A stretch of DNA of 64,000 bases, from positions 3,450,179 to 3,514,178 of the forward strand of contig CP126121.1 in NCBI GenBank assembly GCA_030123625.1, in the 5' to 3' direction. The position numbers were made by a program, and so were the translations under genes. Each line of letters opens with the position of its first letter. Position 1 is the first letter of the stretch. Positions 13,432-48,129 of this stretch are shown here, one piece after another. The notes under the pieces were generated by a model. That model did no database searches. It was not told where the DNA came from and worked only from the letters and a program-made list of their open reading frames with translations. The stretch is from Nitrospira sp. (lineage in GTDB: Bacteria > Nitrospirota > Nitrospiria > Nitrospirales > Nitrospiraceae).

Positions 13432-13566
13432 GCGGTGGGAGGATCAGTCGCCTGGATATAGAAGCTGACGAACTGAGGAGCCCACATGTGCCCTTCGCAA
13501 TGATAGAGCCGCTCAGCACTGTTTACTTCGACCTTGGGCGTGATGTACCGAGAAGGGAGATCACCG

Positions 13567-15186
13567 ATGCCTAAGAAAGAGAAGTCCGACACTGGTCTCA
13601 AGGTGACGGTCAAGCCGTTCGGCCCGACGCGTGAAGAGCTACAAGCGATCGGCGAACGCGTGCTGACACTGGAGAGCGTGCGCAAGTACATCGGCCGCGG
13701 TAAGGCTCGGCTGCTGTACGTCGAGACGCTCCATGATGACGGAGCCAAGGAAAGAAAGCCGCGGCCGCCGAGCCGCTTTCGCGCTACCCTCTATGACGAT
13801 ACAAACCACCGCACGATCCTCGTCGACGGCGACCTGCGTGATGTGCGGCGCGTGGACATCACCGAATCGGCGCTGCCACCGCACCCGTCAAATGAAGAAT
13901 TCGCCGCAGCCGTGAAGATGCTCCGTGGCGATGCGATGTTTGCCGCGAGGTTCGACTCGCAACAGATCGAGACCTACCAACCTATCCCATCGCTCGCGTT
14001 GAACGAATTGCCGGATGGCCGCATCGAACGCCGCATCGCGGTCGGGCTATTGCCTCGCGGCGGCGACGCGCAACATGAGATCGTTGCCGTTGACCTCGCG
14101 CGTAAGCGGATCATCCGCTTCGAAGAGCACCTGCCGCCCAACGCCCATCCGCGCAACCGGGATTTGTGCGGCGTACCGCACGGCGCCGGTCAGACCACGG
14201 CCTCGAAAGGGACTGCCGGGCAGGTATGGGTGACGGTGACGCAAGGAGGGCAGACGCTCTGGCGTTTTCTTGCGGTGCGGCCGGCTGCTTCGAGCGGCAC
14301 CAACGGCTCCGGTATCGAGCTGCGCTATGTCGATTACAAAGGCAAACGGGTTCTGTATCGTGCGCACGTGCCGATTTTGAACGTCAAGTACGATGGCAAT
14401 GCCTGTGGGCCCTATCGCGACTGGCAGTACCAGGAGGGTATGATCCAAGCGACCGGCACGGATGTCGCGCCGGGCTTCCGTTTCTGCCAAGCGCCGGCTA
14501 TGACGATCATTGATACCGGATCGGATACCGGTAACTTCCTTGGTGTCGGCATCTATGTCTTGTTCAACGAGGTCGTGTTTGTGAGCGAAATAGAGGCCGG
14601 CTGGTACCGCTATATCAGCCAGTGGCGGCTGCACGCCAACGGCATGATCCGCCCACGGTTTGCGTTCGCCGCCGTCGAGAGCCCGTGCGTGTGCAACGTC
14701 CACCACCATCATGTCTACTGGCGATTCGACTTCGACATTCGCACCGCCGGCAATAATCGCGTGCGCGAGTTCAACGATCCGCCGCTCATCGGCGCCGGCA
14801 AGTGGCACGATAAACGCTTTGAAATCCGCCGCCCGAGAGATTTCGCCCGCAAGCGTAAATGGCGTGTGGAGAACACCCTCACGGGCGAGGGCTATGAGAT
14901 CGTGCCGAATGCCGATGACGGTGTGGCCACCGCCATGTCCGACTCACCGTTCGGCCGGGGTGATGTCTGGGTCCTGCGTTATCGCGGCAATGAGATCGAC
15001 GACGGCGTGGTCGCAGTGGGGCCGCCGTATGAGGCCGATATCGACCGCTGGGTCAATGGCGAGGCGATCAACGATCATGATGTCGTGATCTGGTACGGAG
15101 GACATTTTACACACGACGTGAACCACGAAGGCCCGGCGCAGCACGGCCACATCGTCGGGCCGGATTTGAAGCCGGTGAACTGGTAG
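13567..15186 (+). CDS. Divergent copper-amine-oxidase-like protein
   Basis: The 539-residue protein (ATG 13567 after AAGGGAG) resembles the C-terminal catalytic domain of copper amine oxidases, which oxidise primary amines using Cu and a tyrosine-derived topaquinone. Visible counterparts are the HxH copper pair in 'CNVHHHHVYWRFDFDI' (about 377-391), a third histidine in 'VIWYGGHFTHDVNHEG' near the C-terminus, and a candidate topaquinone tyrosine in 'AGWYRYISQW' (about 351-360). The canonical motif around that tyrosine is N-Y-(D/E)-Y; here it reads W-Y-R-Y, so the acidic neighbour is lost. No signal peptide is visible. It may be a distinct subfamily or non-catalytic. It sits between mutS2 and a degenerate copy of the mutS2 tail. 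Confidence 0.7.
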   Translation: MPKKEKSDTGLKVTVKPFGPTREELQAIGERVLTLESVRKYIGRGKARLLYVETLHDDGAKERKPRPPSRFRATLYDDTNHRTILVDGDLRDVRRVDITESALPPHPSNEEFAAAVKMLRGDAMFAARFDSQQIETYQPIPSLALNELPDGRIERRIAVGLLPRGGDAQHEIVAVDLARKRIIRFEEHLPPNAHPRNRDLCGVPHGAGQTTASKGTAGQVWVTVTQGGQTLWRFLAVRPAASSGTNGSGIELRYVDYKGKRVLYRAHVPILNVKYDGNACGPYRDWQYQEGMIQATGTDVAPGFRFCQAPAMTIIDTGSDTGNFLGVGIYVLFNEVVFVSEIEAGWYRYISQWRLHANGMIRPRFAFAAVESPCVCNVHHHHVYWRFDFDIRTAGNNRVREFNDPPLIGAGKWHDKRFEIRRPRDFARKRKWRVENTLTGEGYEIVPNADDGVATAMSDSPFGRGDVWVLRYRGNEIDDGVVAVGPPYEADIDRWVNGEAINDHDVVIWYGGHFTHDVNHEGPAQHGHIVGPDLKPVNW

Positions 15187-17443: not shown

Positions 17444-17782
17444 TTAGGGGCCGATGATTTCAGTAAGCCCGTCGATGACTTGTGCTAGCTCTTCAGGGCT
17501 CGCCTTCCCAAGCCGCTGACCGATTCGTTCGGCGGCCAATGTGCGGATTTGGCTAATCTTGACCCATGATTTTTTCGGGAGGTCTTTTGATTGTAGTTCG
17601 AGAGTGAGCGGAAATTCTGCTCGTTGTGGTTGGCTTGTGAGCGCGACGGCGATCACGGTTCCGGAACGCTCATTGAATACGTCGTGACTGAGGATAAGAA
17701 CAGGGCGCAGCCCCGCCTGCTCATTACCACGGACTGGATTCAGCTCTGCCCAACGAATCTCCCCCCTCAATATTCTGGCCAT
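17444..17782 (-). CDS. MazF/PemK-family endoribonuclease toxin
   Basis: The 112-residue protein shows the MazF/PemK SH3-like barrel pattern: '[27 protein letters not shown]', 'VIAVALTSQ', and '[16 protein letters not shown]'. The Arg in the first loop and the Ser/Thr of the 'QIRT' strand correspond to positions used for RNA cleavage in MazF-type toxins, which cut single-stranded mRNA. Its start overlaps the antitoxin gene by 16 bases, so the two are translated together. The frame is intact and the length normal. Confidence 0.9.
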
Positions 17783-18009
17783 TCGGCGGCATCCTTAGAC
17801 AATCCCTCTTCGGCAAGTGCCTTCTCAAAAGCCGGATCAAGCTTTGCGCATTCCCTGGCCAAGCGGCTTCGGTTGAGTCGCGCCAGCTTTTCTTCTACGG
17901 CTTCCTGAATTGCCTGACTGCGGCTGGTAAAGGCAGCTTTCTCGACGAGTTTATCGATGCGGCCCAATGTGGATTCATCAAGGGAGATCGCGACTTTTGA
18001 CTTGGCCAT
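17767..18009 (-). CDS. Ribbon-helix-helix antitoxin of the MazF-like toxin
   Basis: The 80-residue protein begins [23 protein letters not shown] and continues '[16 protein letters not shown]', a classic ribbon-helix-helix (CopG/MetJ-like) DNA-binding domain. The acidic C-terminal tail ([19 protein letters not shown]) would bind the toxin. Antitoxins of this kind repress their own operon. A palindrome fitting an operator lies 11 bases upstream of the start (18021-18041). Confidence 0.88.
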
Positions 18010-18020
18010 TTCACCCCTAT

Positions 18021-18089: not shown

Positions 18090-19715
18090 CTACAGCGTCT
18101 TCAAATACTCTACCAATGCATCCTTGTCTTTGTCCGGCAGGTCGGTGCCAAACGTGTGGCCCTGATTGCTGCTGGCGCGTTGACTCACATCGAACCGTGT
18201 CCCGATTCGCTCCACGTCCTCGCGCAATCTTTCCCGTTCCTGTTCATCCGTAAGCCCGATGGTATTGGCCTCCTGTTTGCTCGTTACGAAACCAACTTTG
18301 ACGGGATTGTAGACATTGTAGCCGCGGAAGAAGATCTTGGGTCGCTTGTCGACCGGCTCCAACAGATCGCGCAGCGTCGGAACAGCCCCATGATGCAGGT
18401 ATGGAGCTCGGAGCCAAATGCCGTCGAGAAAAGATGCGACATAGCCGATCAGCGGTTCTTCGACGAGTCCTTTGCGCTCCAGCCCAAACCCACGCACGAC
18501 CTGGTTTGCTTTAATCGCCGCGTCTTTGCTCCAGGTATCGAGCCGCTCTCGGTCGGTTCCCACCTCGGCGATCGGCACACGCGTTCCGGTTCGCTCGCTG
18601 GCGTGGCATGAGGCGCAGGCATGGTCGAATACCGCCTTACCCGCCGCTGCTTTAATCTGATCAATCGGAAAAGGGAATTTGGGTGGAGGATACTTGCCAA
18701 GGTAGTCCTCAAACCAATCGATGTGACCGAGGAATTCCTCTCTGCTCTTGGGCCTGGCTCCGATTACCCCCAAGGCCGAGTCCATGATGACCGATCGGGC
18801 GTCGTGACTGTCACCGGCCAGATTCATGAAGTGGCCCTTCTCCGGTTTGTACTTCTGCAAATTCCAGATGGAGGGCATGTCGGTGGGGCCGACACTATCG
18901 TCCATCGGTTCCTCGATCATGAAGTATTTTGTGAGGTTCATCGCGTCGTCGCGGCCTCGCCCCCATTCCGGAAAATCCTTGCGATAGATCCACGCAAACT
19001 GTTGCTCACGCTCGAGCAGCCGCTTCTTCGTGATGGGAATCAGCAGATAGCGATAGATCAGTTTGTCGGTCCAGCTCAAGTCCGCGACCAATCGGATTTC
19101 ACTCATCAAGACGTCCGAATTGAAGCGGGGGTCCTTCGCGACATCGACGAGCAGGCGAAAGAATGCCTCCAAATCGAGCGAATGATTCGGTCCGGCAATG
19201 ACGAAGGTAGGCTTGTCGCTCGGCTTCGCTCGCCAGGCGGCGACATGGCAGGAGGCGCAGGTATTGCCGATACGCGCGAAACCGATGACACGTTTGGTGA
19301 AGCCGATCGGAATTTCCTGGCCCTCTTCCCACTGGATGCCGAGCGATGCGTAACCGCCCGGCCCCGGAAACTTGTCTGGAAAAACGCGTGGGATGATGTA
19401 CCAGATCCAATAGGGAAGGCCCACTTCGTGTTCGGCGCCGATCGACCCGTACTTAAACCGCATATCCGGATCGTTCGTGATCCATTCAGGAACCCCCTCG
19501 TCGCGGAAGAATTTGTACCAACCGACGTAGGCTCCGATCAGGCCGAGCACGAGCAATAAAAGGAGAATGATCTTCAGCTTGCTTATCTTCTTCGAGATGT
19601 TGCCGGGTGCCGGCATTTTCCCCTGCGGAGGAAGCTGATCAACCGCAGAAGAAAAGCTCAAGGAGTCGAGAGGGTCTAGAGTATTCGTCTCTATACTGGC
19701 AACATCCTTCGCCAT
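18090..19715 (-). CDS. Membrane-anchored di-haem c-type cytochrome (541 residues)
   Basis: A single membrane helix at about 47-67 anchors the protein, with the bulk in the periplasm. Two covalent haem motifs are visible: C153-A-S-C156-H157 and C367-A-S-C370-H371. A C-terminal segment 'DGIWLRAPYLHHGAVPTLRDLLEP' at 431-453 is shared with di-haem oxidoreductases of the MauG/RoxA type and with the 508-residue neighbour. The two proteins also share 'FKYGS(I/L)G' and 'GLPYWIW'-like N-terminal segments, so they are paralogues. This is the last gene of a five-gene operon, 16 bases after the previous one. Its 3' end is duplicated as a remnant at 17165. Electron transfer or a peroxidase/oxygenase-like role is possible; the substrate is unknown. 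Confidence 0.85.
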   Translation of the reverse strand: MAKDVASIETNTLDPLDSLSFSSAVDQLPPQGKMPAPGNISKKISKLKIILLLLLVLGLIGAYVGWYKFFRDEGVPEWITNDPDMRFKYGSIGAEHEVGLPYWIWYIIPRVFPDKFPGPGGYASLGIQWEEGQEIPIGFTKRVIGFARIGNTCASCHVAAWRAKPSDKPTFVIAGPNHSLDLEAFFRLLVDVAKDPRFNSDVLMSEIRLVADLSWTDKLIYRYLLIPITKKRLLEREQQFAWIYRKDFPEWGRGRDDAMNLTKYFMIEEPMDDSVGPTDMPSIWNLQKYKPEKGHFMNLAGDSHDARSVIMDSALGVIGARPKSREEFLGHIDWFEDYLGKYPPPKFPFPIDQIKAAAGKAVFDHACASCHASERTGTRVPIAEVGTDRERLDTWSKDAAIKANQVVRGFGLERKGLVEEPLIGYVASFLDGIWLRAPYLHHGAVPTLRDLLEPVDKRPKIFFRGYNVYNPVKVGFVTSKQEANTIGLTDEQERERLREDVERIGTRFDVSQRASSNQGHTFGTDLPDKDKDALVEYLKTL

Positions 19716-19731
19716 GACCGATCTCCTTTCC

Positions 19732-21258
19732 TCAGAAGGTCTTCAGGTACTCGATCAGAGCGACCTTGTCCGCTTCTGGCAGCTCGGTCCCGTACCGCGC
19801 GCCTTCATGTCCATCACGGCCATTGCCCGGCAGCGACCGTCCCTTTTCGTCGGTGGTGTCGAATAGAAAAAATCGTCGCCCCTCTTCTTCGCTCACGGTT
19901 GAAACGAACCCCATCCGCTGTTGATCGTACACGTCATATCCACGATAGAATCTGGTGGGTCGCTTACCGCGAGGCTCCAAAAGATCTCTCAGCGTGGGCA
20001 CCGACCCGTTGTGGAGGTAGGGGGCCCGCAGCCAGATGCCGTCCAACGGCATATTGGCGTAGCCGTTCGTTTTGCGGAAATGGGAGAACCGTTCGTCGGG
20101 ATTGTCGTTGCCCGCGTACAGAAGATTTTGATTCACGGCCAGCTCGTACGTGTAAGAATCTAATCGGTAGGGATCGGTCTTGATGTGCGAGATCGGCACC
20201 ACTTTGCCGACGGTGTCGCCGGTAAAGTCTCTGCCGCTCGCACCATGACAGTCCGCGCAGTACCGCCGATAGATCGGCGCTCCTTTCGCCGCGACCTGCC
20301 GATCGATAGGAAAGGGGTAGGGTGGCGGTTCCCTGGTCAGGAGCCAATGTTCCACTCGTTTCATCGCCGCACGATCGAGAGTGGGTGGTGTGGCGCCGGC
20401 CCCGAATGCCGCACTTCGATTCCGTTCTTCCACGCTGGTATTGTTGCCGTCCCAATGGAGCTGCATGCCGATCCGCGGTTTCTGCAGCCAAATGGAGGGA
20501 AAATCGACGACGCCCACCTGTTCGCGAAGCGGGATGTCGTCCATTCGAAAGTTCAGCAGCGCCTTCGCAAAGGCAAAGGTATCGACTCGGCCAGGTCCCC
20601 ATTCGCGCGTCGGTCCCTTGTCGAGCATGAACGACAGCCGTTGATCCAACATGACGAGTCTCGACCTCATGAGATGCACGGCTAGGGGATACACGACCAA
20701 TTGATCAAAGAGACCGAGGTTGCCGCCTACTTCCTGGATTGAGGGGACAATCAGATCGGGTGAGAAGGCGGCGCTTTTGGCGCAGTCAAAGAGAAATCGC
20801 TCGAAGGCCATGAGGTTGAGCCTGTGGGCCGGCATGCCGGTATAGAGCCGAGGCTGACCGGTCGGTATTTCGCGTACCGTACTCGCGTGACAAGCTGCGC
20901 AGTTCAGAAAGACGCGATCGAGCCCCACATGTCGTCGCATGGACATGCCGACGGGCAACGGCTTCTTTTCCTCATACACAAACCCCAGCGCCTTGTACTC
21001 CTGCCCCGGAAAGCGTCGCCCATCCGGTAACTGTGCGGCACACACACGGGGCAGAACCTTCCAGATCCAATAGGGAAATCCCGCTTCGCGCTCGCCCCCC
21101 AGAGATCCGTACTTAAAGTGATCCTCGTCATCGGCATAGCGGACCGGCTCATCCACCAGAAATCGTGACGCCAGCAAGCCACTTATTGCTACGAATAGAA
21201 ACAGTGCGGTGAGGCACATCACCTTCCACCAATGGCGACGGTTGGAGTTGATATTCAT
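19732..21258 (-). CDS. Membrane-anchored di-haem c-type cytochrome (508 residues)
   Basis: This paralogue of the 541-residue protein has a membrane helix at about 13-32 and haem motifs C120-A-A-C123-H124 and C334-A-D-C337-H338. It shares 'GFPYWIW', 'RVDTFAFAKALLNF' (RDDAMNLTKYF in the partner), 'VDFPSIW' and 'LDGIWLRAPYLHNGSVPTLRDLLEP'. The last segment is characteristic of di-haem oxidoreductases related to MauG and RoxA. The gene is fourth in the operon, with 17-base spacers on both sides. Two adjacent diverged paralogues may form a heterodimer, which is inference. Confidence 0.85.
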   Translation of the reverse strand: MNINSNRRHWWKVMCLTALFLFVAISGLLASRFLVDEPVRYADDEDHFKYGSLGGEREAGFPYWIWKVLPRVCAAQLPDGRRFPGQEYKALGFVYEEKKPLPVGMSMRRHVGLDRVFLNCAACHASTVREIPTGQPRLYTGMPAHRLNLMAFERFLFDCAKSAAFSPDLIVPSIQEVGGNLGLFDQLVVYPLAVHLMRSRLVMLDQRLSFMLDKGPTREWGPGRVDTFAFAKALLNFRMDDIPLREQVGVVDFPSIWLQKPRIGMQLHWDGNNTSVEERNRSAAFGAGATPPTLDRAAMKRVEHWLLTREPPPYPFPIDRQVAAKGAPIYRRYCADCHGASGRDFTGDTVGKVVPISHIKTDPYRLDSYTYELAVNQNLLYAGNDNPDERFSHFRKTNGYANMPLDGIWLRAPYLHNGSVPTLRDLLEPRGKRPTRFYRGYDVYDQQRMGFVSTVSEEEGRRFFLFDTTDEKGRSLPGNGRDGHEGARYGTELPEADKVALIEYLKTF

Positions 21259-21275
21259 GGCCTCACCTCATTCCG

Positions 21276-23237
21276 TCATTCACGGCTTGCTCTTGCCAAG
21301 GTCTGAGTCGGTTTCCCGGGCGCTATGCAGGCCGGTAAGGTGTCATAATCTTGCCGGAGTAAATCCTCCGGTGTGAACGCAGAGCCCCGTTTTCTCCGAA
21401 CTGCGGCCGCCGCTTCCCGACGAAGAGCCTGAAAGTCCGGATGAGCCGTCCATTGGTCAAGGCCGATCCGGTGCTGCAGCACATGCATGGCCGGCGGCAT
21501 CGGCGCCTCCAGCTGCTCGCGATCAGCCACATTCCACATACTCAACCGCACGAACATGCGATCCGCGCATTGCGCCAAATTGGTCTCGACTTCATCAGGT
21601 GACCCATGGAGAAAGTTCGGGGGGAAACCGTCCGTTCCATGATGACAAGCGCCGCAATACTCATGGAAAATCTTCAGCATGCCGGCCGGCGGGACTTCTC
21701 GTTTCTCCCCATCGGTCGAGTGATGGGACTCAACGACCTCGTCCACCGGCGGCGGCATGCCGCGATTATCCAGACAGCAGCGAGTGATTACCGGAGTTCC
21801 CAATTGCTCATCGAGGGCGGTCAAGAACGTCACCCGACGGAACGTCTGGTTTGCGAATACATCTGTCTGCCCCATGAATGTTTTCTGCGCCAAAGCGCTC
21901 AAGGCTTGATGGAACCGCTCAGGTTGCTGACGGATCAATCGCTCCAGTCGATTGAGATCCGCCTTGGTGAAAAATTGCACGAACGAAGCCAGGATTCGCT
22001 CCAGTGCCTCTGGAGTATCGGGGACGGTCCACACCTCCAATGGGTCGCGAGGCAGTGTCGGTTCGTGTGGTCCGCGAAACAAGGATCGTGGTTCTCTTCC
22101 CTCAAGGGCAGTGGCTTCCACCTCACTGAGTCCGGGGAACTCGCTCACCGCCACATATCGAAAGGGGTTGCGATTGGGAATATCCGGATTGGGAATGGCC
22201 AACCCATGCGGCCAGCGCGCGCGCCACGCGGCAAGAAAAGATGGCGGCTCCACACCGGCCTCGCCCGTGTGCCAACCCTGGACTAATCTTTTTAACAGTG
22301 CATATTGAAGCATCCACTCGATCAGTTCGGCTCGACACCTGATCGACAGCTCAGGTCGACCGGCCTGTTCACATCCCTCGCGCCAGAGCAGTTGGACGAG
22401 TGAGATGTCATTCGCTCGGTCGGTGGCGTCATCGAAGGCTTGGAGCACGCTCACCCCTTGTCGAATGGGAAAGCCGTGATATGGTCGGTGTTGATGGGCG
22501 AGCAAGGCGGCGATCTTGGGATTCACGTTGGTTTCGTCCCACATGGGACGCGAAAAGATGGGGCTGTGATTCTGATGACAAGCGATGCAGAGCGCACGAT
22601 TGGCATACCGAACGGTCGGCGTTCCGCCGGAACGATAGTCGCTCACCACCTGAAATTCGAACCGGCCGGCCGCCTCGTTATAGCTAATGACCTCCAATAC
22701 ACCGGTTTTTTCGTGGTAGCCGATGAAAAGCCTGTCTTTGAGATACATGCCTGATAGGCTCAAAGCCGAATCAGCGTCTGTATCGACGGCCAGCACAGCC
22801 CGCGGATAGACAAAAAACGCTCCGTCGCCGGCACGCCGTTGCAGCGAGCGATTGACGGGGATCAGCAATCGTTTAAGGACCGACTGTGTCCGTTCGGAGT
22901 GAAGACGGGATTCGATACGGGCTACCAGAGAGGAGAACGGGAATGGAATGTCATAGATCTTCTTGCCGTTTACGTCTTTTGTGATGAGGAAGTCAAATAG
23001 GGATCGTCCGACCGGTGGGAGGTTCGCTCCGGGATCACTGGGATCTATGACCCATGGAGGTGCCGTGGAATCAGGAGGCGAGGGGGCGGCTGATTGGGAA
23101 ACTGAGGCAGGCCGTTGGTCGGCAGACGTTCCTGCATCCTGCCGATCACATCCTGAAACCAATGCCATCATCATGGTCAGACATCCCAATCTCGTCGCCC
23201 ACCGCCTTGCCATCCGTTGCACGGTTGATCGGTTCAC
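21276..23237 (-). CDS. Di-haem cytochrome c lipoprotein (653 residues)
   Basis: A signal peptide with lipobox 'LVSGC' puts the lipidated Cys at residue 30, so the protein is anchored to a membrane and exposed to the periplasm. Haem motifs are C217-I-A-C220-H221, in 'RALCIACHQNHSPIFSRPMW', and C528-G-A-C531-H532. Between them lies a 300-residue domain I do not recognise, with 'PFRYVAVSEFPGLSEVEATALEGR'. The spacing of the haem sites differs from the two shorter cytochromes, so this is a separate family. It is third in the operon, 7 bases after the haem-free lipoprotein gene. Confidence 0.8.
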   Translation of the reverse strand: MNRSTVQRMARRWATRLGCLTMMMALVSGCDRQDAGTSADQRPASVSQSAAPSPPDSTAPPWVIDPSDPGANLPPVGRSLFDFLITKDVNGKKIYDIPFPFSSLVARIESRLHSERTQSVLKRLLIPVNRSLQRRAGDGAFFVYPRAVLAVDTDADSALSLSGMYLKDRLFIGYHEKTGVLEVISYNEAAGRFEFQVVSDYRSGGTPTVRYANRALCIACHQNHSPIFSRPMWDETNVNPKIAALLAHQHRPYHGFPIRQGVSVLQAFDDATDRANDISLVQLLWREGCEQAGRPELSIRCRAELIEWMLQYALLKRLVQGWHTGEAGVEPPSFLAAWRARWPHGLAIPNPDIPNRNPFRYVAVSEFPGLSEVEATALEGREPRSLFRGPHEPTLPRDPLEVWTVPDTPEALERILASFVQFFTKADLNRLERLIRQQPERFHQALSALAQKTFMGQTDVFANQTFRRVTFLTALDEQLGTPVITRCCLDNRGMPPPVDEVVESHHSTDGEKREVPPAGMLKIFHEYCGACHHGTDGFPPNFLHGSPDEVETNLAQCADRMFVRLSMWNVADREQLEAPMPPAMHVLQHRIGLDQWTAHPDFQALRREAAAAVRRKRGSAFTPEDLLRQDYDTLPACIAPGKPTQTLARASRE

Positions 23238-23244
23238 ATTCGCT

Positions 23245-24168
23245 TCACTGTGTTTTCGTTAACCGGACCTGTTGGCTGCCCGTCTTGTTGGCCATGGCCG
23301 TCATGCGTTGATTGCCGACCCAACAGTCCTCGTTGATAGCTCCGGAATTGACAAAGCTCGGTGTCTCCTTTTCCGCGACTGCTTTGTTGTAGAGGGTGAA
23401 ATTCAATGCGAAAACCTTCTTGATGTAAGCCCGTCCCAGATAGAACCCGGGACGGACCATGCGAATCTCGTCGCGTATCTCCAATCCTTCCCGTCCGGCC
23501 AACATATCCGGCATTTCCCGGTAGCCCGGCAGGTCATCCGTGAACGCATAGTCGATGATGACCGATTCCCTGCGCCCATCCAGCAGGCTCTGGCCGCAAT
23601 AGAGCTTCGCGGGGAACAATAACCAGGCGTCCTTGCCGTCCACATCCAGCTTTTGGATCTTCTCAACGTTCGGACCGACAATCGGCTTCAGTGCAAGGAG
23701 ATCCTCGATGCGATTTCGGAGCACCCCTTCGCCGCGATAGAAGACTTTCCCTTTCCAGATGAATTCGCCGATGTGCTCGAGTGTGGCGGCTTTGCGATCG
23801 ACGATGAACCCTTTAATGCCTCCTCCGACGATTTCAGCCAGTCGGGCTCGTTCGCTCGTTCCTTTCGGGAAGAACATGTGCCCATCGTAAGCCCCATCCG
23901 GAATGGGACCGGCCGTCAAACGGGCATAGATTTGATCGACCTGTTCCTGCGTGGCACCCTTGAGGTTCTCCGGCGTGATCTTCATGAGATCGGTCGGTGT
24001 GAGGAGCGACTCGTGCTCCAGCCGGGCGAAGTCGATCTTGTCGGAATATCGTTCGCCGCTCTGGGCAAAGGGAATCGGCGGCGGATCTGGGTTACAGCCA
24101 AGGAGGATAGTTTGACTGACCACCAAGCCGACTGACATCAACCATCGTGCGTGTCTCATCATCATCAC
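23245..24168 (-). CDS. Haem-free lipoprotein of the cytochrome operon (307 residues)
   Basis: The N-terminus MMMMRHARWLMSVGLVVSQT leads into a lipobox 'ILLGC' near residue 25. No CxxCH motif is present. The mature part has 'GGGIKGFIVDRKAATLEHIGEFIWKGKVFYRGEG' and ends with a cysteine in 'INEDCWVGNQRM'. I recognise no family. Being second in an operon of four cytochromes suggests an assembly factor, scaffold or substrate-binding partner, but this rests on context alone. Confidence 0.75.
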   Translation of the reverse strand: MMMMRHARWLMSVGLVVSQTILLGCNPDPPPIPFAQSGERYSDKIDFARLEHESLLTPTDLMKITPENLKGATQEQVDQIYARLTAGPIPDGAYDGHMFFPKGTSERARLAEIVGGGIKGFIVDRKAATLEHIGEFIWKGKVFYRGEGVLRNRIEDLLALKPIVGPNVEKIQKLDVDGKDAWLLFPAKLYCGQSLLDGRRESVIIDYAFTDDLPGYREMPDMLAGREGLEIRDEIRMVRPGFYLGRAYIKKVFALNFTLYNKAVAEKETPSFVNSGAINEDCWVGNQRMTAMANKTGSQQVRLTKTQ

Positions 24169-24189
24169 CTCTTCTTTGGATTCATACCA

Positions 24190-26631
24190 TCAGAGTGTCG
24201 CGAGGAACGCTGTCAACGCATCCTTCTCTTTGTCCGAGAGATCCTCGCCGAATCGATGTCCATCGTTTTCGATGACTGCGAGGCTGTTGCTGTACACCTC
24301 GCGCAATTCCGCTCCGGCCTCGAGCATGGTTCCCGGTTTCGCGAGCAACTCCGTGCCCTTGTCTTGGATCGTTTTGGCGATCTGTGCGCCCTTTTCCGTC
24401 CCATATCGGCCGACGTACTTCGCCTTCAGCTTGTCAAAATCCACCCGCGCCGTGACGAGATCCTCCACCAGCTCCTTGTGGCGGAAGTTCCCGATGCGCG
24501 CGGCCGGCGTGCCGACTGGAAAGCGAACGGCCGTGTTGATGAACCGCTCCTGCTTATCGTCACCCAGTTTTGGGAACAGCCGAATGGTCACGTCGGAATT
24601 GAATGCGGTCATTTTGGGAATTCGTTGAGATGGGTTAAGCAACTCTTTCATCGACGCTTTGTAGAGCTTGAATCGCCCCTCTACGCTGGGATCGAATATC
24701 CAGCAGGGCGGGGGATTGACCAGCGGTTTTCCATCCTTATCGTCCTTATCGACATACGGTGAGTGGTAGTGCTCGTCCAATGGGCCGCCGCAGACTTCGG
24801 GGCCCACGGCGTTGTCGTGCATGAAGGGGGCGTAGGCCCACAGGCTGAGCAGCGAGATATTTCGGTAGTAGCCTCGTCCGCCGTCAGAAGGTTCTTTAAG
24901 CTGCGGGTCGCCGGGTTTCGCCCGCAAGGTCTCAGAGCCGTACTCTTCCCAGACATGGCCCTTCATGTGATTCGAATGAAGGGACCGCGAGCGGTTGGTG
25001 CCGACCTCGCTCACAGGAATCGGCTTGTCGTTCCCCAGCCAGTCGATCCGCATGCCCCTATCTTTGGGGTCTGTGGAGACCGCTCGAAAATCACGATTTT
25101 CGAACGGTGGGACCTGGCTGGAATGACACGAGGCGCACTTGCTTGCGAAGATCGTTCTTCCTTGTTCGACCGCGCCCTTGCCGAATTCCTTATTGAGTTG
25201 TTCGACAAGCGCCGAGTAGTTCTTCAATCCCCGTGCCTGGTACAGTTCGGCCGGAGCGCCGGTCTGCAAAAACTTGAATACTTCCTCCAAGCGGTCTTCG
25301 ATCGCTCGGAATTGCGGACAGTCGCGCCGAACCTGACCGATGTCGAACGGAGTCTGGCCGAACCCACGCATCGTGGGATCGAGTTGCCGCATATCCGTGA
25401 GATGATTGACCCATCCTTCCTCCGAACAACTGCCGATATTGAAGTAGACGCGTTGAATCGCCTCAAGCACGCCGATGCTGTCCTCCCCACCTTTCAGAAT
25501 GTGATGGACGATCTCTTTCTTGCGGGTTCGCTCCCAACACTTGCCGTCCTTACCCGGCTCACACCAACAGGTCCTCTCATCTCCGCCAGCCGGACATTGG
25601 TTGGTCTTGCGCCATTTGATGATGTCTTCTTCGAAGGTCGGCCGTTTGGCAAGATTGATGATCGCGTTCATCGTACCGGCGTTGTTGACCTGATCGTTGG
25701 GAATCGCGGAGGTATCGACGGCACCAGGACGAGAATGCCCATAGATTTGATACTCAATGGTGTTCGGCGCCATTCCCGATCCCAAAATCTGCGAAAATCG
25801 CCCGTACTGGTTGCCGACGGTTCCGGACAAATTCTCCCATTTCGGATGGGACGGATCTTTCGGAGGGCGGATCGGATCAAAGGCAATGTGACAGGCGCCG
25901 CATGACATGCCGATGCGATAGGGCGGCTCGATTGAGCCGTCGATCAGATGACTCTTGGCCGGCGCTTCACGGTCCTTGCGCGGCGTCACCTTGGCCGTAT
26001 ACCCGTCCCATGTATCTTGATGTCCGCCGTTGATCTGCAGCCATTTCACTTTGTCGAATTTGGGATTGGGGAATTTGCGCAATCCGAGCGCGCCGGTCGA
26101 GGTCCCGAATTCGAGATCGCAGGCCGACTGTCGTTGATCTTTTGGACCATGGGGATCACGGGGAGCGACGGCCGCATCCTTCAGATCGCAGGCGGGGTCT
26201 CGATAGCCGGCCTTCCCAACATACTTCAGCAATTCGTCGTCGCCGGGACAGTAGTCGAAGCCGTAGGTCTCGCTGTAACTTTTGGCTGGGCAGCCGGGAT
26301 CTCCCGGCTTACAACAATCCGGATCGTTGATCAAACCCCACCGATAGAAGCGCTGATCGCGTAAGTCGCTTCGCAGGACGCGGTACCAATCGATCATGAC
26401 GCCAAGCCGTTGCTGATAGACGTAGGTAAAGAAACGGGAATTGCCTGCTGTCGCGTTGAACCAAATCTCAGCCCCGACCAGCTCGGCATCCGTCAGATTC
26501 TTGCCATAGTGGAATGTCGAGGAGGTGGTCTTATCGTTCGCAGCGAGCGCCGATTCTTCCTTCAAGCCTACATATCCTGCGAATAAAGCCAGGCCAAGAA
26601 TGAGTGAGAGCCCTCTCTGTATCCGTCGCAT
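24190..26631 (-). CDS. Large secreted di-haem c-type cytochrome (813 residues), RoxA-like in layout
   Basis: A signal peptide (about 1-31, ending ALA-A) directs the protein to the periplasm. Haem motifs are C244-G-A-C247-H248, in 'GMSCGACHIAFDPIRPP', and C499-A-S-C502-H503. A C-terminal segment 'LLSLWAYAPFMHDNAVGP' corresponds to the 'APYLHNGSVP' segment of di-haem oxidoreductases. Several extra cysteines (for example 106-114, 346-365) may form disulfides. The arrangement resembles RoxA/RoxB-type or MauG-superfamily proteins, some of which activate oxygen; that relation is inferred from motif order. A strong GAGAGGAGGAT precedes the ATG. It is the first gene of the operon. Confidence 0.82.
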   Translation of the reverse strand: MRRIQRGLSLILGLALFAGYVGLKEESALAANDKTTSSTFHYGKNLTDAELVGAEIWFNATAGNSRFFTYVYQQRLGVMIDWYRVLRSDLRDQRFYRWGLINDPDCCKPGDPGCPAKSYSETYGFDYCPGDDELLKYVGKAGYRDPACDLKDAAVAPRDPHGPKDQRQSACDLEFGTSTGALGLRKFPNPKFDKVKWLQINGGHQDTWDGYTAKVTPRKDREAPAKSHLIDGSIEPPYRIGMSCGACHIAFDPIRPPKDPSHPKWENLSGTVGNQYGRFSQILGSGMAPNTIEYQIYGHSRPGAVDTSAIPNDQVNNAGTMNAIINLAKRPTFEEDIIKWRKTNQCPAGGDERTCWCEPGKDGKCWERTRKKEIVHHILKGGEDSIGVLEAIQRVYFNIGSCSEEGWVNHLTDMRQLDPTMRGFGQTPFDIGQVRRDCPQFRAIEDRLEEVFKFLQTGAPAELYQARGLKNYSALVEQLNKEFGKGAVEQGRTIFASKCASCHSSQVPPFENRDFRAVSTDPKDRGMRIDWLGNDKPIPVSEVGTNRSRSLHSNHMKGHVWEEYGSETLRAKPGDPQLKEPSDGGRGYYRNISLLSLWAYAPFMHDNAVGPEVCGGPLDEHYHSPYVDKDDKDGKPLVNPPPCWIFDPSVEGRFKLYKASMKELLNPSQRIPKMTAFNSDVTIRLFPKLGDDKQERFINTAVRFPVGTPAARIGNFRHKELVEDLVTARVDFDKLKAKYVGRYGTEKGAQIAKTIQDKGTELLAKPGTMLEAGAELREVYSNSLAVIENDGHRFGEDLSDKEKDALTAFLATL

Positions 26632-27238
26632 GACCGATCCTCCTCTCTCTTGACGAGTGCCGTCTCAGCGACGACGGCGCTCTCGTGGCGAAGCTTTCCG
26701 CATTCAGCGAGTCTTTGTGGCGAGAGTGCTAATCTACTGGGACTACTTAGCAAGCAGCTTGCCGAACAAATCTCAAGAGATTGTGCATGAATACCTGCAG
26801 CAAAGGGCCGAGAAGTATCTGATTGGATACCGAGAAGGATCAGAATAGATACAGTTCATCAATTCCTGAGGAAAATATGCCTCTTCTAATGAAAGGTACG
26901 AGTTGGTAAGAAAACGAGAAAATCGGAGAAGAGAACGATTGGTGGAGATCAACCACATCAGGTTTCCAGGCATGTCGTAAAGTGGTCGAGTGGTCGATGG
27001 TATGGATATCGCGATGGTTTGCAGAGACCTGTTGTAAAGGCGAACTCGGTCGCGCTCCTCACGGGCGTAGCGATCGATGCCTCCAGAATCCCTCTAGTTA
27101 TGCTGCCACGGTTCTCAGACTGTAAACGATTGAACTCGTGGGCTTGTTTCTTGACAGGGGAAAACCATTCTTGCTAGCTTGGCTCGATATTTCTGAATTA
27201 ACTATCTAATCATCTCTCCCGACCAGGCTGTCGTTTCT
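26632..27238. other. Divergent intergenic region between the cytochrome operon and glyQS
   Basis: No gene is supported in these 600 bases. The left end carries the ribosome binding site for the 813-residue cytochrome gene, and the right end a candidate promoter for glyQ at 27151-27180. The middle is AT-richer than its surroundings and shows nothing recognisable. Confidence 0.5.
27151..27180 (+). promoter_or_regulatory. Candidate sigma-70-type promoter of glyQ
   Basis: TTGACA at 27151-27156 matches the -35 consensus. An 18-base spacer leads to TAGCTT at 27175-27180, a weak -10. It lies about 60 bases upstream of the glyQ start. No glycine riboswitch or T-box was recognised between it and the gene. 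Confidence 0.4.
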
Positions 27239-46740: not shown

Positions 46741-48129
46741 ATGAACAGTGCAAGGCATTGTGGGAAAAATCTGTTGCGAATGTCCTTATGCCTGCTTCTC
46801 TTGGACGCTCAAGTGCTCGGCACTTTCTCGGTTATCCCGACCGCTGAGGCCCAATTGGGAAAGCCGGACGGCCTGTACTACAAATCTTGGGCGATCATTA
46901 TTGGGATCGAAAACTATGTCCTGGCTCCTCCCATCCCCGGGGCGGTTAGCGATGCCAAGAAGGTTGCCGAGACGTTTCGGCGGTTGGGGTTCGACGAGGT
47001 GATCGAGTTCTATGACAAGGACGCAAGCTCACGACGTCTCCATCAGCTTTTGGACGACATGTTGCCGAGAAAAGTTGGACGCATGGACCGGCTTGTCATC
47101 TTCTACGTGGGCCATGCCGGATCCATGCAGGATGCCGAGGGTCAAGATCGCGGATATCTTGTGCCGTTTGACGCACAGGTCAACAACGCAACGAAATCTA
47201 TCACGGTTGAGCATTTAAAAGAATTTACAAGACGGTCGGCTTCCAAACATACACTCCTGATTCTGGATGCGCCGGTATTCGGATGGGAGACCACTGTGCC
47301 TCCGCAGCTTTCATTGGAAGGGCGGCTGGCCCCGGAGTCGGATACGGATCGGCGCGCGGTTCAAGTCATCAGTGTGGCTGGTAAAGGTGAGGCCGCCGTT
47401 CGCGTCGAGAAGAGCAGTCGTTTTGTTGAGGCCTTGCTGGACGGACTGTCTGGCTTTGCCGATCTGGATGGAAACGGCTGGCTCATGGCTTCCGAGTTGG
47501 GGACCTATCTCATGCGACAGGTCGAAGCGGCTTCCAATGGTATGCAGCATCCATTGAGTTTACGGATCGACGGCGATGGAGACACGGCGTTGATCGAAGG
47601 ACGGAAGTCCGCCTTTACACTGGGTGCGGGTCCTCAGACTCCTTCTGAACGCCGACAGGAGGCGAGGGCTCAATACGAACGCGCCTTTGCGCTGCTCCAG
47701 GAAGGGAAATCCGTGGAAGAAGCGTTGGAGCGGTTGGATCGCGCCATCGGTTACGATGCCGCCTACGGTGATGCATACGTTCTCAAGAGTTATATTCGGC
47801 TGGAAGTTATGCCGAATCTCGATGAGGCCTTGGCGACCGGCCTTCTTGCTGTGAAATATGCGCCGGAGAATCCCGATTCATTTTATCTATTGGGATTGAT
47901 TCACGAAAAACGCGGCAAGTTCGTGGAAGCTGAGGCCGCTCTCCGACAAGCCTTGCTTGTGAACAATACCAATCCGGATGTCTATTTCGCGTTGGGGGTT
48001 CTGTATGCCGATCATCTCCATGATCAACCGAAGGCGGTGGAGGCGTTTCGCCGGTGCTTGGAACTCGGCGGCACACATGCACGGGCTCGAGCAGCCGTCA
48101 GCCAAGCCGATCGCGCTCCAGCGCCTTAG
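46741..48129 (+). CDS. Secreted caspase-fold (C14) protein with TPR domain, catalytic Cys missing
   Basis: The 462-residue protein has a signal peptide (about 1-37), a caspase-like p20 domain (about 45-260), an EF-hand-like loop 'DLDGNGWLMASEL', and TPR repeats (about 300-455). The catalytic His is present as H125 in 'IFYVGHAG'. The cysteine strand, normally 'LLILDAC(F/Y)SG', reads LLILDAPVFG (172-181), with Pro178 in place of Cys. It is therefore probably a pseudo-peptidase that binds partners. It precedes four lipoprotein genes on the same strand. Confidence 0.85.
   Translation: MNSARHCGKNLLRMSLCLLLLDAQVLGTFSVIPTAEAQLGKPDGLYYKSWAIIIGIENYVLAPPIPGAVSDAKKVAETFRRLGFDEVIEFYDKDASSRRLHQLLDDMLPRKVGRMDRLVIFYVGHAGSMQDAEGQDRGYLVPFDAQVNNATKSITVEHLKEFTRRSASKHTLLILDAPVFGWETTVPPQLSLEGRLAPESDTDRRAVQVISVAGKGEAAVRVEKSSRFVEALLDGLSGFADLDGNGWLMASELGTYLMRQVEAASNGMQHPLSLRIDGDGDTALIEGRKSAFTLGAGPQTPSERRQEARAQYERAFALLQEGKSVEEALERLDRAIGYDAAYGDAYVLKSYIRLEVMPNLDEALATGLLAVKYAPENPDSFYLLGLIHEKRGKFVEAEAALRQALLVNNTNPDVYFALGVLYADHLHDQPKAVEAFRRCLELGGTHARARAAVSQADRAPAP

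Follow-up and report, generated by a model that had tools for sequence, protein, structure and literature searches.

What is the function of five genes for haem proteins and lipoproteins that stay side by side in the genomes of some nitrite-oxidising Nitrospira? The question arises from a cluster of consecutive minus-strand genes in a 64,000-nucleotide stretch (the window) of Nitrospira sp. contig CP126121.1 (assembly GCA_030123625.1, positions 3,450,179 to 3,514,178). The window is part of a 4.69-Mb single-contig genome, and its closest relatives bear Nitrospira names. We refer to the genes as A to E, so that the order of transcription on the minus strand reads E-D-C-B-A (Table 1). Our favoured answer, to which we assign a probability of about 0.45, is that the cluster may encode a pathway that works outside the cytoplasm and oxygenates an unsaturated hydrophobic compound, fatty acids or lipids being the likeliest, with chemistry of the type known from the rubber oxygenase RoxA and the oleate enzymes PA2077/PA2078. 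We consider lipid oxidation outside the inner membrane probable because relatives of the cluster adjoin genes for lipid-cutting and peroxide-handling proteins. The cluster's own proteins are kin to enzymes that oxygenate rubber or oleic acid.

A preliminary description of this DNA had proposed five closely spaced genes, four for di-haem proteins and one for a haem-free lipoprotein. The open reading frames (ORFs), all on the minus strand, bear this out at every coordinate, with spacers of 21 (E/D), 7 (D/C), 17 (C/B), and 16 (B/A) base pairs (bp). CXXCH motifs number two each in A, B, C, and E, and none is present in D. Both C and D start with GTG and have in-frame ATGs shortly downstream, so that the 7-bp spacer hinges on the choice of start codon. 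From the spacing and the conserved gene order, we infer cotranscription of E-D-C-B-A; a scan upstream of E, which has little power here, gave no promoter-like match. Purifying selection acts on each of the five, with ratios of nonsynonymous to synonymous substitution rates (dN/dS) of 0.04–0.25 against three congeners, and therefore none of them is a decaying ORF.

A and B, described earlier as tandem paralogues of 541 and 508 residues, are indeed about 36–40% identical. Each N-terminus reads as a hydrophobic stretch with no lipobox, which gives both proteins the appearance of membrane-anchored enzymes. Both narrowly pass the curated cut-off (150 bits) of the NCBIfam model NF040606, di-heme-cytochrome C peroxidase, an uncharacterised subfamily, with 151.9 bits for A and 171.5 bits for B; C and E fail it. 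In a tree, the canonical members of this subfamily (up to 588 bits) form a clade apart from A and B with a support of 100/100. The RoxA-like Pfam domain PF21419 is matched by A (54.8 bits) and B (60.9 bits), and among solved structures only RoxA (PDB 4b2n) is a convincing relative of B, with an E-value of 1.7e-7 for B and 1.9e-16 for an A/B profile. The NCBIfam models of RoxA, RoxB, and RoxC return 48–67 bits (best 67.2) against cut-offs of 900–1000, which neither protein reaches. A and B share with RoxA the haem motifs, at a CXXCH spacing of 214 as compared with 199, and the C-terminal His ligand, in a GH pair that is also common to E. They differ from RoxA, RoxB, and RoxC in that the cluster proteins are apparently membrane-anchored, belong to a multi-gene set, and have no known link to rubber.

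In RoxA, Trp302 sits between the two haems and Phe317 stabilises O2 (PMC10837239, PMC4496055). Equivalents of both residues are present in B (HWDG...AAFG), where the Phe was placed by eye, the automatic alignment being off by 1–2 residues at this site. All B proteins of Nitrospirota and rhizobia have the inter-haem Trp, as do rhizobial A and most NF040606 members (some have Tyr). Every Nitrospirota A examined has Leu at this position (NLAGD). In the window, the site is Trp269 of B and Leu299 of A. The Phe317 site is occupied by Phe in Nitrospirota B (AAFG) and by Leu in A. The haem ligands are retained in A, and the dN/dS of this gene (0.04–0.07) marks it as strongly conserved and hence not decaying.

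Loss of the Trp from one of two paralogues has a counterpart in PA2077–PA2078 (FadCcp), the oleate 10S-dioxygenase and 7,10-diol synthase pair of Pseudomonas aeruginosa (PMC4496055). Together with RoxA, this pair is the nearest system that has been characterised. Measured against the features published for it, A and B are likewise extracytoplasmic di-haem paralogues in tandem, each with two CXXCH motifs, a MauG-type motif of the form PY[FL]HNGSV, and a C-terminal His ligand, with the inter-haem Trp in one partner and not in the other. W251 and F269 of the dioxygenase PA2077 correspond to S243 and F260 of the diol synthase PA2078, and both haem histidines are required in PA2077 and neither in PA2078 (PMC4496055). 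By these residues, A appears to resemble the Trp-less PA2078, and B the Trp-keeping PA2077. The Nitrospira proteins are shorter (508–541 residues as compared with 624–634), and their cluster contains three such proteins (A, B, and E) together with the di-haem lipoprotein C and the haem-free D.

E was first described as a secreted protein of 813 residues with RoxA-like haem placement. Secretion agrees with a cleavable-looking signal peptide at the N-terminus; the likeness to RoxA in haem placement is not a specific one, as the CXXCH motifs of E are 255 residues apart and the RoxA-like arrangement fits A and B better. The spacing in E is nearer to PA2077 (245) and PA2078 (235; PMC4496055) than to RoxA. 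The APYLHNGSVP-type segment reported for three of the proteins occurs in A, B, and E (APFMHDNAV at residues 601–609) and is absent from C; the C-terminal GH of E lies at residues 791–792. Although E scores only 26.9 bits with NF040606, it aligns with the A/B family profile at 96.8% probability over residues 489–609, the region of the second haem and the APFMHDNAV segment, which makes E a remote member of the RoxA/CcP-like superfamily. The E family has an invariant Lys (LKGGED, Lys380) where B has the inter-haem Trp, according to a by-eye alignment, and the His of the MauG motif is absent from some relatives of E. Structure prediction of E from 17 sequences was poor (mean predicted local distance difference test score, pLDDT, of 41.6).

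Related genomes retain the gene order, a point that the preliminary description had suggested checking. Besides the window, eight Nitrospirota genomes have the order E-D-C-B-A (L031/L047, L033/L049, L034, L035, L036, L050, L054, and L057). In the metagenome assembly L054, a frame change near codon 433 splits B (L054:15372-16945); the other four genes are intact. Six other Nitrospira genomes (L032, L046, L048, L051, L052, and L053) have E-D-C followed, in tight spacing, by a 433-residue protein that matches no family, a DyP-type peroxidase, and a catalase-like protein, which together replace B-A; in L052, the contig breaks off in the DyP region. Remnants of A persist downstream in L046 and L053, and L037 has E-D alone. 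At L042:9341-9654 (= L058), glyQS and mutS2 enclose a relic in which the first 84 codons of E run straight into the final 30 codons of the catalase-like gene; it records the deletion of an entire cluster. Within Nitrospira, both versions of the cluster adjoin glyQS and/or mutS2 wherever the flanks are visible, and these constant flanks accordingly point to a single ancestral slot that has been repeatedly lost or altered. Across a sample of 246 genomes of the phylum, an E homologue or remnant occurs in 13 and C in 7.

The exchange of B-A for a DyP-type peroxidase and a catalase-like protein would preserve a theme of peroxide or hydroperoxide handling, and it raises the alternative of periplasmic peroxide detoxification. 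In this scheme A and B, together with E, would reduce H2O2 or organic hydroperoxides with electrons from cytochrome c, in the manner of bacterial cytochrome c peroxidase. The NCBI name of the family and the inter-haem Trp retained by B are in keeping with such a role. With bacterial cytochrome c peroxidase and MauG (PF03150), the cluster proteins share two c-type haems and the MauG-type motif. However, the five proteins give no match to PF03150, whose only matches in the genome lie at ~2.62 Mb, outside the window; the nearest solved relative, RoxA, is an oxygenase, and the patatin and GMC neighbours described below would be unexpected for H2O2 scavenging. We regard detoxification as unlikely.

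Homologues of part of the cluster also exist outside the phylum. In tblastn searches against plasmids, B finds homologues of 41–45% identity with A beside them in Rhizobium and Sinorhizobium, where E has homologues of about 25% identity. The rhizobial order is flavin oxidoreductase, B, a 143-residue protein, A, E, GMC oxidoreductase, and patatin-like phospholipase. It is complete in R. johnstonii pRL11, S. fredii pSF45436e, and Rhizobium sp. Pop5, the last gene of pSF45436e being annotated as hypothetical with a ~60% match to patatin; Sinorhizobium sp. B11 has the same order without patatin. As in Nitrospira, homologues of A, B, and E stand together in one cluster; the rhizobial version differs in lacking C and D and in having the GMC oxidoreductase, the 143-residue membrane protein, and the patatin-like phospholipase (absent in L129). 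We know of no characterisation of this rhizobial cluster. A, B, and E are a module common to two phyla. Nitrospira A groups with rhizobial A in a single clade (support 100/100; the program flags long branches), apart from canonical NF040606, and for this reason the A/B duplication is probably older than the spread of the module between the phyla.

Fifteen genomes were searched whole. They had been chosen for carrying E or an NF040606 protein, a choice that biases presence and leaves position unaffected. All six GMC homologues in these genomes lie directly downstream of an E homologue, and catalase-like homologues occur in 7 of the 15, each adjoining a di-haem gene or the relic of one. In Nitrospirota, distant homologues of E (L038, L039, L040, L041, L043, and L044) are always followed by a GMC oxidoreductase, in two cases accompanied by a catalase-like gene; in L041, an animal-type haem peroxidase and a B-like gene are nearby. 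Other members of the family adjoin animal-type haem peroxidases, catalase-like genes, or patatin. In Rhizobium phaseoli (L123:5024-7852), the gene that directly precedes one for a di-haem protein encodes a fusion of a catalase-like part with an animal haem peroxidase domain, and pNGR234a (L128:8019-14939) encodes consecutively a catalase-like protein, a hypothetical protein, a di-haem peroxidase, and a patatin-like phospholipase. The Thr-His mark on the distal haem side of fatty-acid-hydroperoxide catalases is present in the Nitrospira catalase-like protein; it was not found in several others and was not used as support.

The position of the GMC gene behind E, seen in rhizobia as well, is also what would be expected of an electron-transfer module. 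Electrons would then pass from an extracytoplasmic dehydrogenase, of the GMC type in the relatives, through E to A, B, and C and on to O2 or cytochromes; in Nitrospira another donor would serve, held by D and C. The Lys that replaces the inter-haem Trp in E, and the MauG-motif His lost from some of its relatives, suit a carrier of this kind. Yet the Nitrospira cluster contains no dehydrogenase, no homologue of the GMC protein is found in the genome, and B retains active-site residues of the oxygenase type. Taken together, these points leave an electron-transfer module an improbable description of the cluster.

The remaining two proteins have no counterpart in the rhizobial module. The distinct lipid-anchored di-haem protein of the preliminary description is C, which carries a lipobox and whose profile aligns with A/B and with E only in the CXXCH region; C is left out of the RoxA superfamily for this reason. 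C gives no useful match in Pfam, NCBIfam (including NF040606), or the PDB; D has no Pfam or NCBIfam family match and no useful PDB match. Pfam searches with both at an E-value of 10 return cytochrome fragments and noise, nothing else. The fatty acid cis-trans isomerase Cti was considered as an identity for C, an idea that no such Pfam match supports. D homologues were found only beside E in the 246 Nitrospirota genomes, and D directly follows E in every Nitrospira-type cluster. Its Trp138 and Trp283 are invariant; structure prediction from seven sequences was poor (mean pLDDT 35.9). Neither C nor D was found in the plasmids searched, and the two are Nitrospira additions to the A/B/E module. 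It is thus not the case that each of the five proteins falls into a characterised family: C and D have none, and A and B are marginal in an uncharacterised one.

The pairing of E with D resembles that of MbnH and MbnP, a di-haem enzyme encoded beside a haem-free lipoprotein. By analogy with MbnH or MauG, a di-haem enzyme might oxidise residues of D and so mature it into a functional cofactor-bearing protein. E and D are never separated in Nitrospira-type clusters, one genome has the pair alone, and D has two invariant Trp residues. Nevertheless, the MbnH model TIGR04039 gives B 12.8 bits against a cut-off of 362.85 and does not list E or D, and the rhizobial and other distant relatives of E occur without D. 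We consider maturation of D very improbable.

Under lipid oxygenation, our favoured reading, B would bind O2 at its N-terminal haem, with the Trp linking the haems, and would either make a hydroperoxide or cleave a C=C bond. A, without that Trp, might turn over the hydroperoxide or pass on electrons. E could supply or accept electrons, a part that its relatives may play towards the GMC oxidoreductase of the adjacent gene, and the lipoproteins C and D may tether the system or present the substrate. We infer every catalytic step from family, residues, and neighbours; anatomy and conservation are observed directly. Several points weigh against lipid oxygenation. Neither a lipase nor a GMC protein nor any other lipid enzyme is encoded in the Nitrospira cluster, and searches of the host genome with the GMC and catalase-like proteins found no match. 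The NCBI label of NF040606 reads 'peroxidase', and the Phe317 equivalent is Leu in rhizobial B. The parallel with PA2077/PA2078 is drawn from published residues and, since rhizobial A has the Trp, its dioxygenase/isomerase aspect is confined to Nitrospirota A.

The earlier suggestion of a new periplasmic redox system proves too vague, as relatives and neighbours point more specifically to lipids that undergo oxygenation or peroxide chemistry, of a kind close to that of RoxA and the oleate diol synthase pair. There are precedents for RoxA-like di-haem enzymes and for di-haem oxygenases in tandem. According to a literature search, which returned no paper connecting Nitrospira with rubber oxygenase or FadCcp, the five-protein arrangement, the core shared across phyla, and the orphan families C and D appear to be undescribed. 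It is conceivable, if doubtful, that chemolithoautotrophic nitrifiers possess an undescribed multi-component pathway in which three RoxA-like di-haem enzymes, with two lipoproteins that each represent a new family, oxygenate lipids of membranes or of the environment and perhaps yield oxylipins, with a B-A step that is interchangeable with the DyP/catalase-like set. Di-haem oxygenases of the RoxA and oleate type have been characterised in few bacteria (RoxA/RoxB, PA2077/PA2078). If lipid oxygenation is correct, a conserved multi-gene version in Nitrospira, with a core in common with plant-associated rhizobia, would suggest that periplasmic haem oxygenation of lipids is broader and more modular than recognised, and it would represent unexpected lipid chemistry for nitrifiers. 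The natural swap of B-A offers a direct genetic test of the roles of B and A, and C and D provide two protein families with no described relative that travel with E in Nitrospira.

Table 1. Features of the cluster (positions within the window).
Feature	Position	Strand	Basis
E, 813 residues, secreted di-haem protein, first gene	24190..26631	-	ORF
D, 307 residues, haem-free lipoprotein	23245..24168	-	ORF, lipobox LLGC
C, 653 residues, di-haem lipoprotein	21276..23237	-	ORF, lipobox VSGC
B, 508 residues, membrane-anchored-looking di-haem protein	19732..21258	-	ORF, NF040606, PF21419
A, 541 residues, membrane-anchored-looking di-haem paralogue of B	18090..19715	-	ORF, NF040606, PF21419
E, haem-1 motif CGACH, residue 244	25888..25902	-	sequence
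E, haem-2 motif CASCH, residue 499	25123..25137	-	sequence
E, LKGGED, Lys380	25480..25497	-	by-eye alignment
B, HWDG, inter-haem Trp equivalent	20446..20457	-	alignment
Divergent intergenic region E/glyQ, 607 bp, presumed operon promoter site	26632..27238	.	spacing only

Directly downstream of the cluster, a gene for a MazF/PemK-like toxin (window 17444-18010, minus strand) is preceded, just upstream, by one for a ribbon-helix-helix-like antitoxin. Also near the cluster, a short copper amine oxidase-like protein is encoded at 13534-15186 on the plus strand, with PF01179 on its C-terminal part only. Elsewhere in the window, positions 46741-48129 (plus strand) encode a secreted-looking caspase-domain (Peptidase_C14) protein with TPR repeats.

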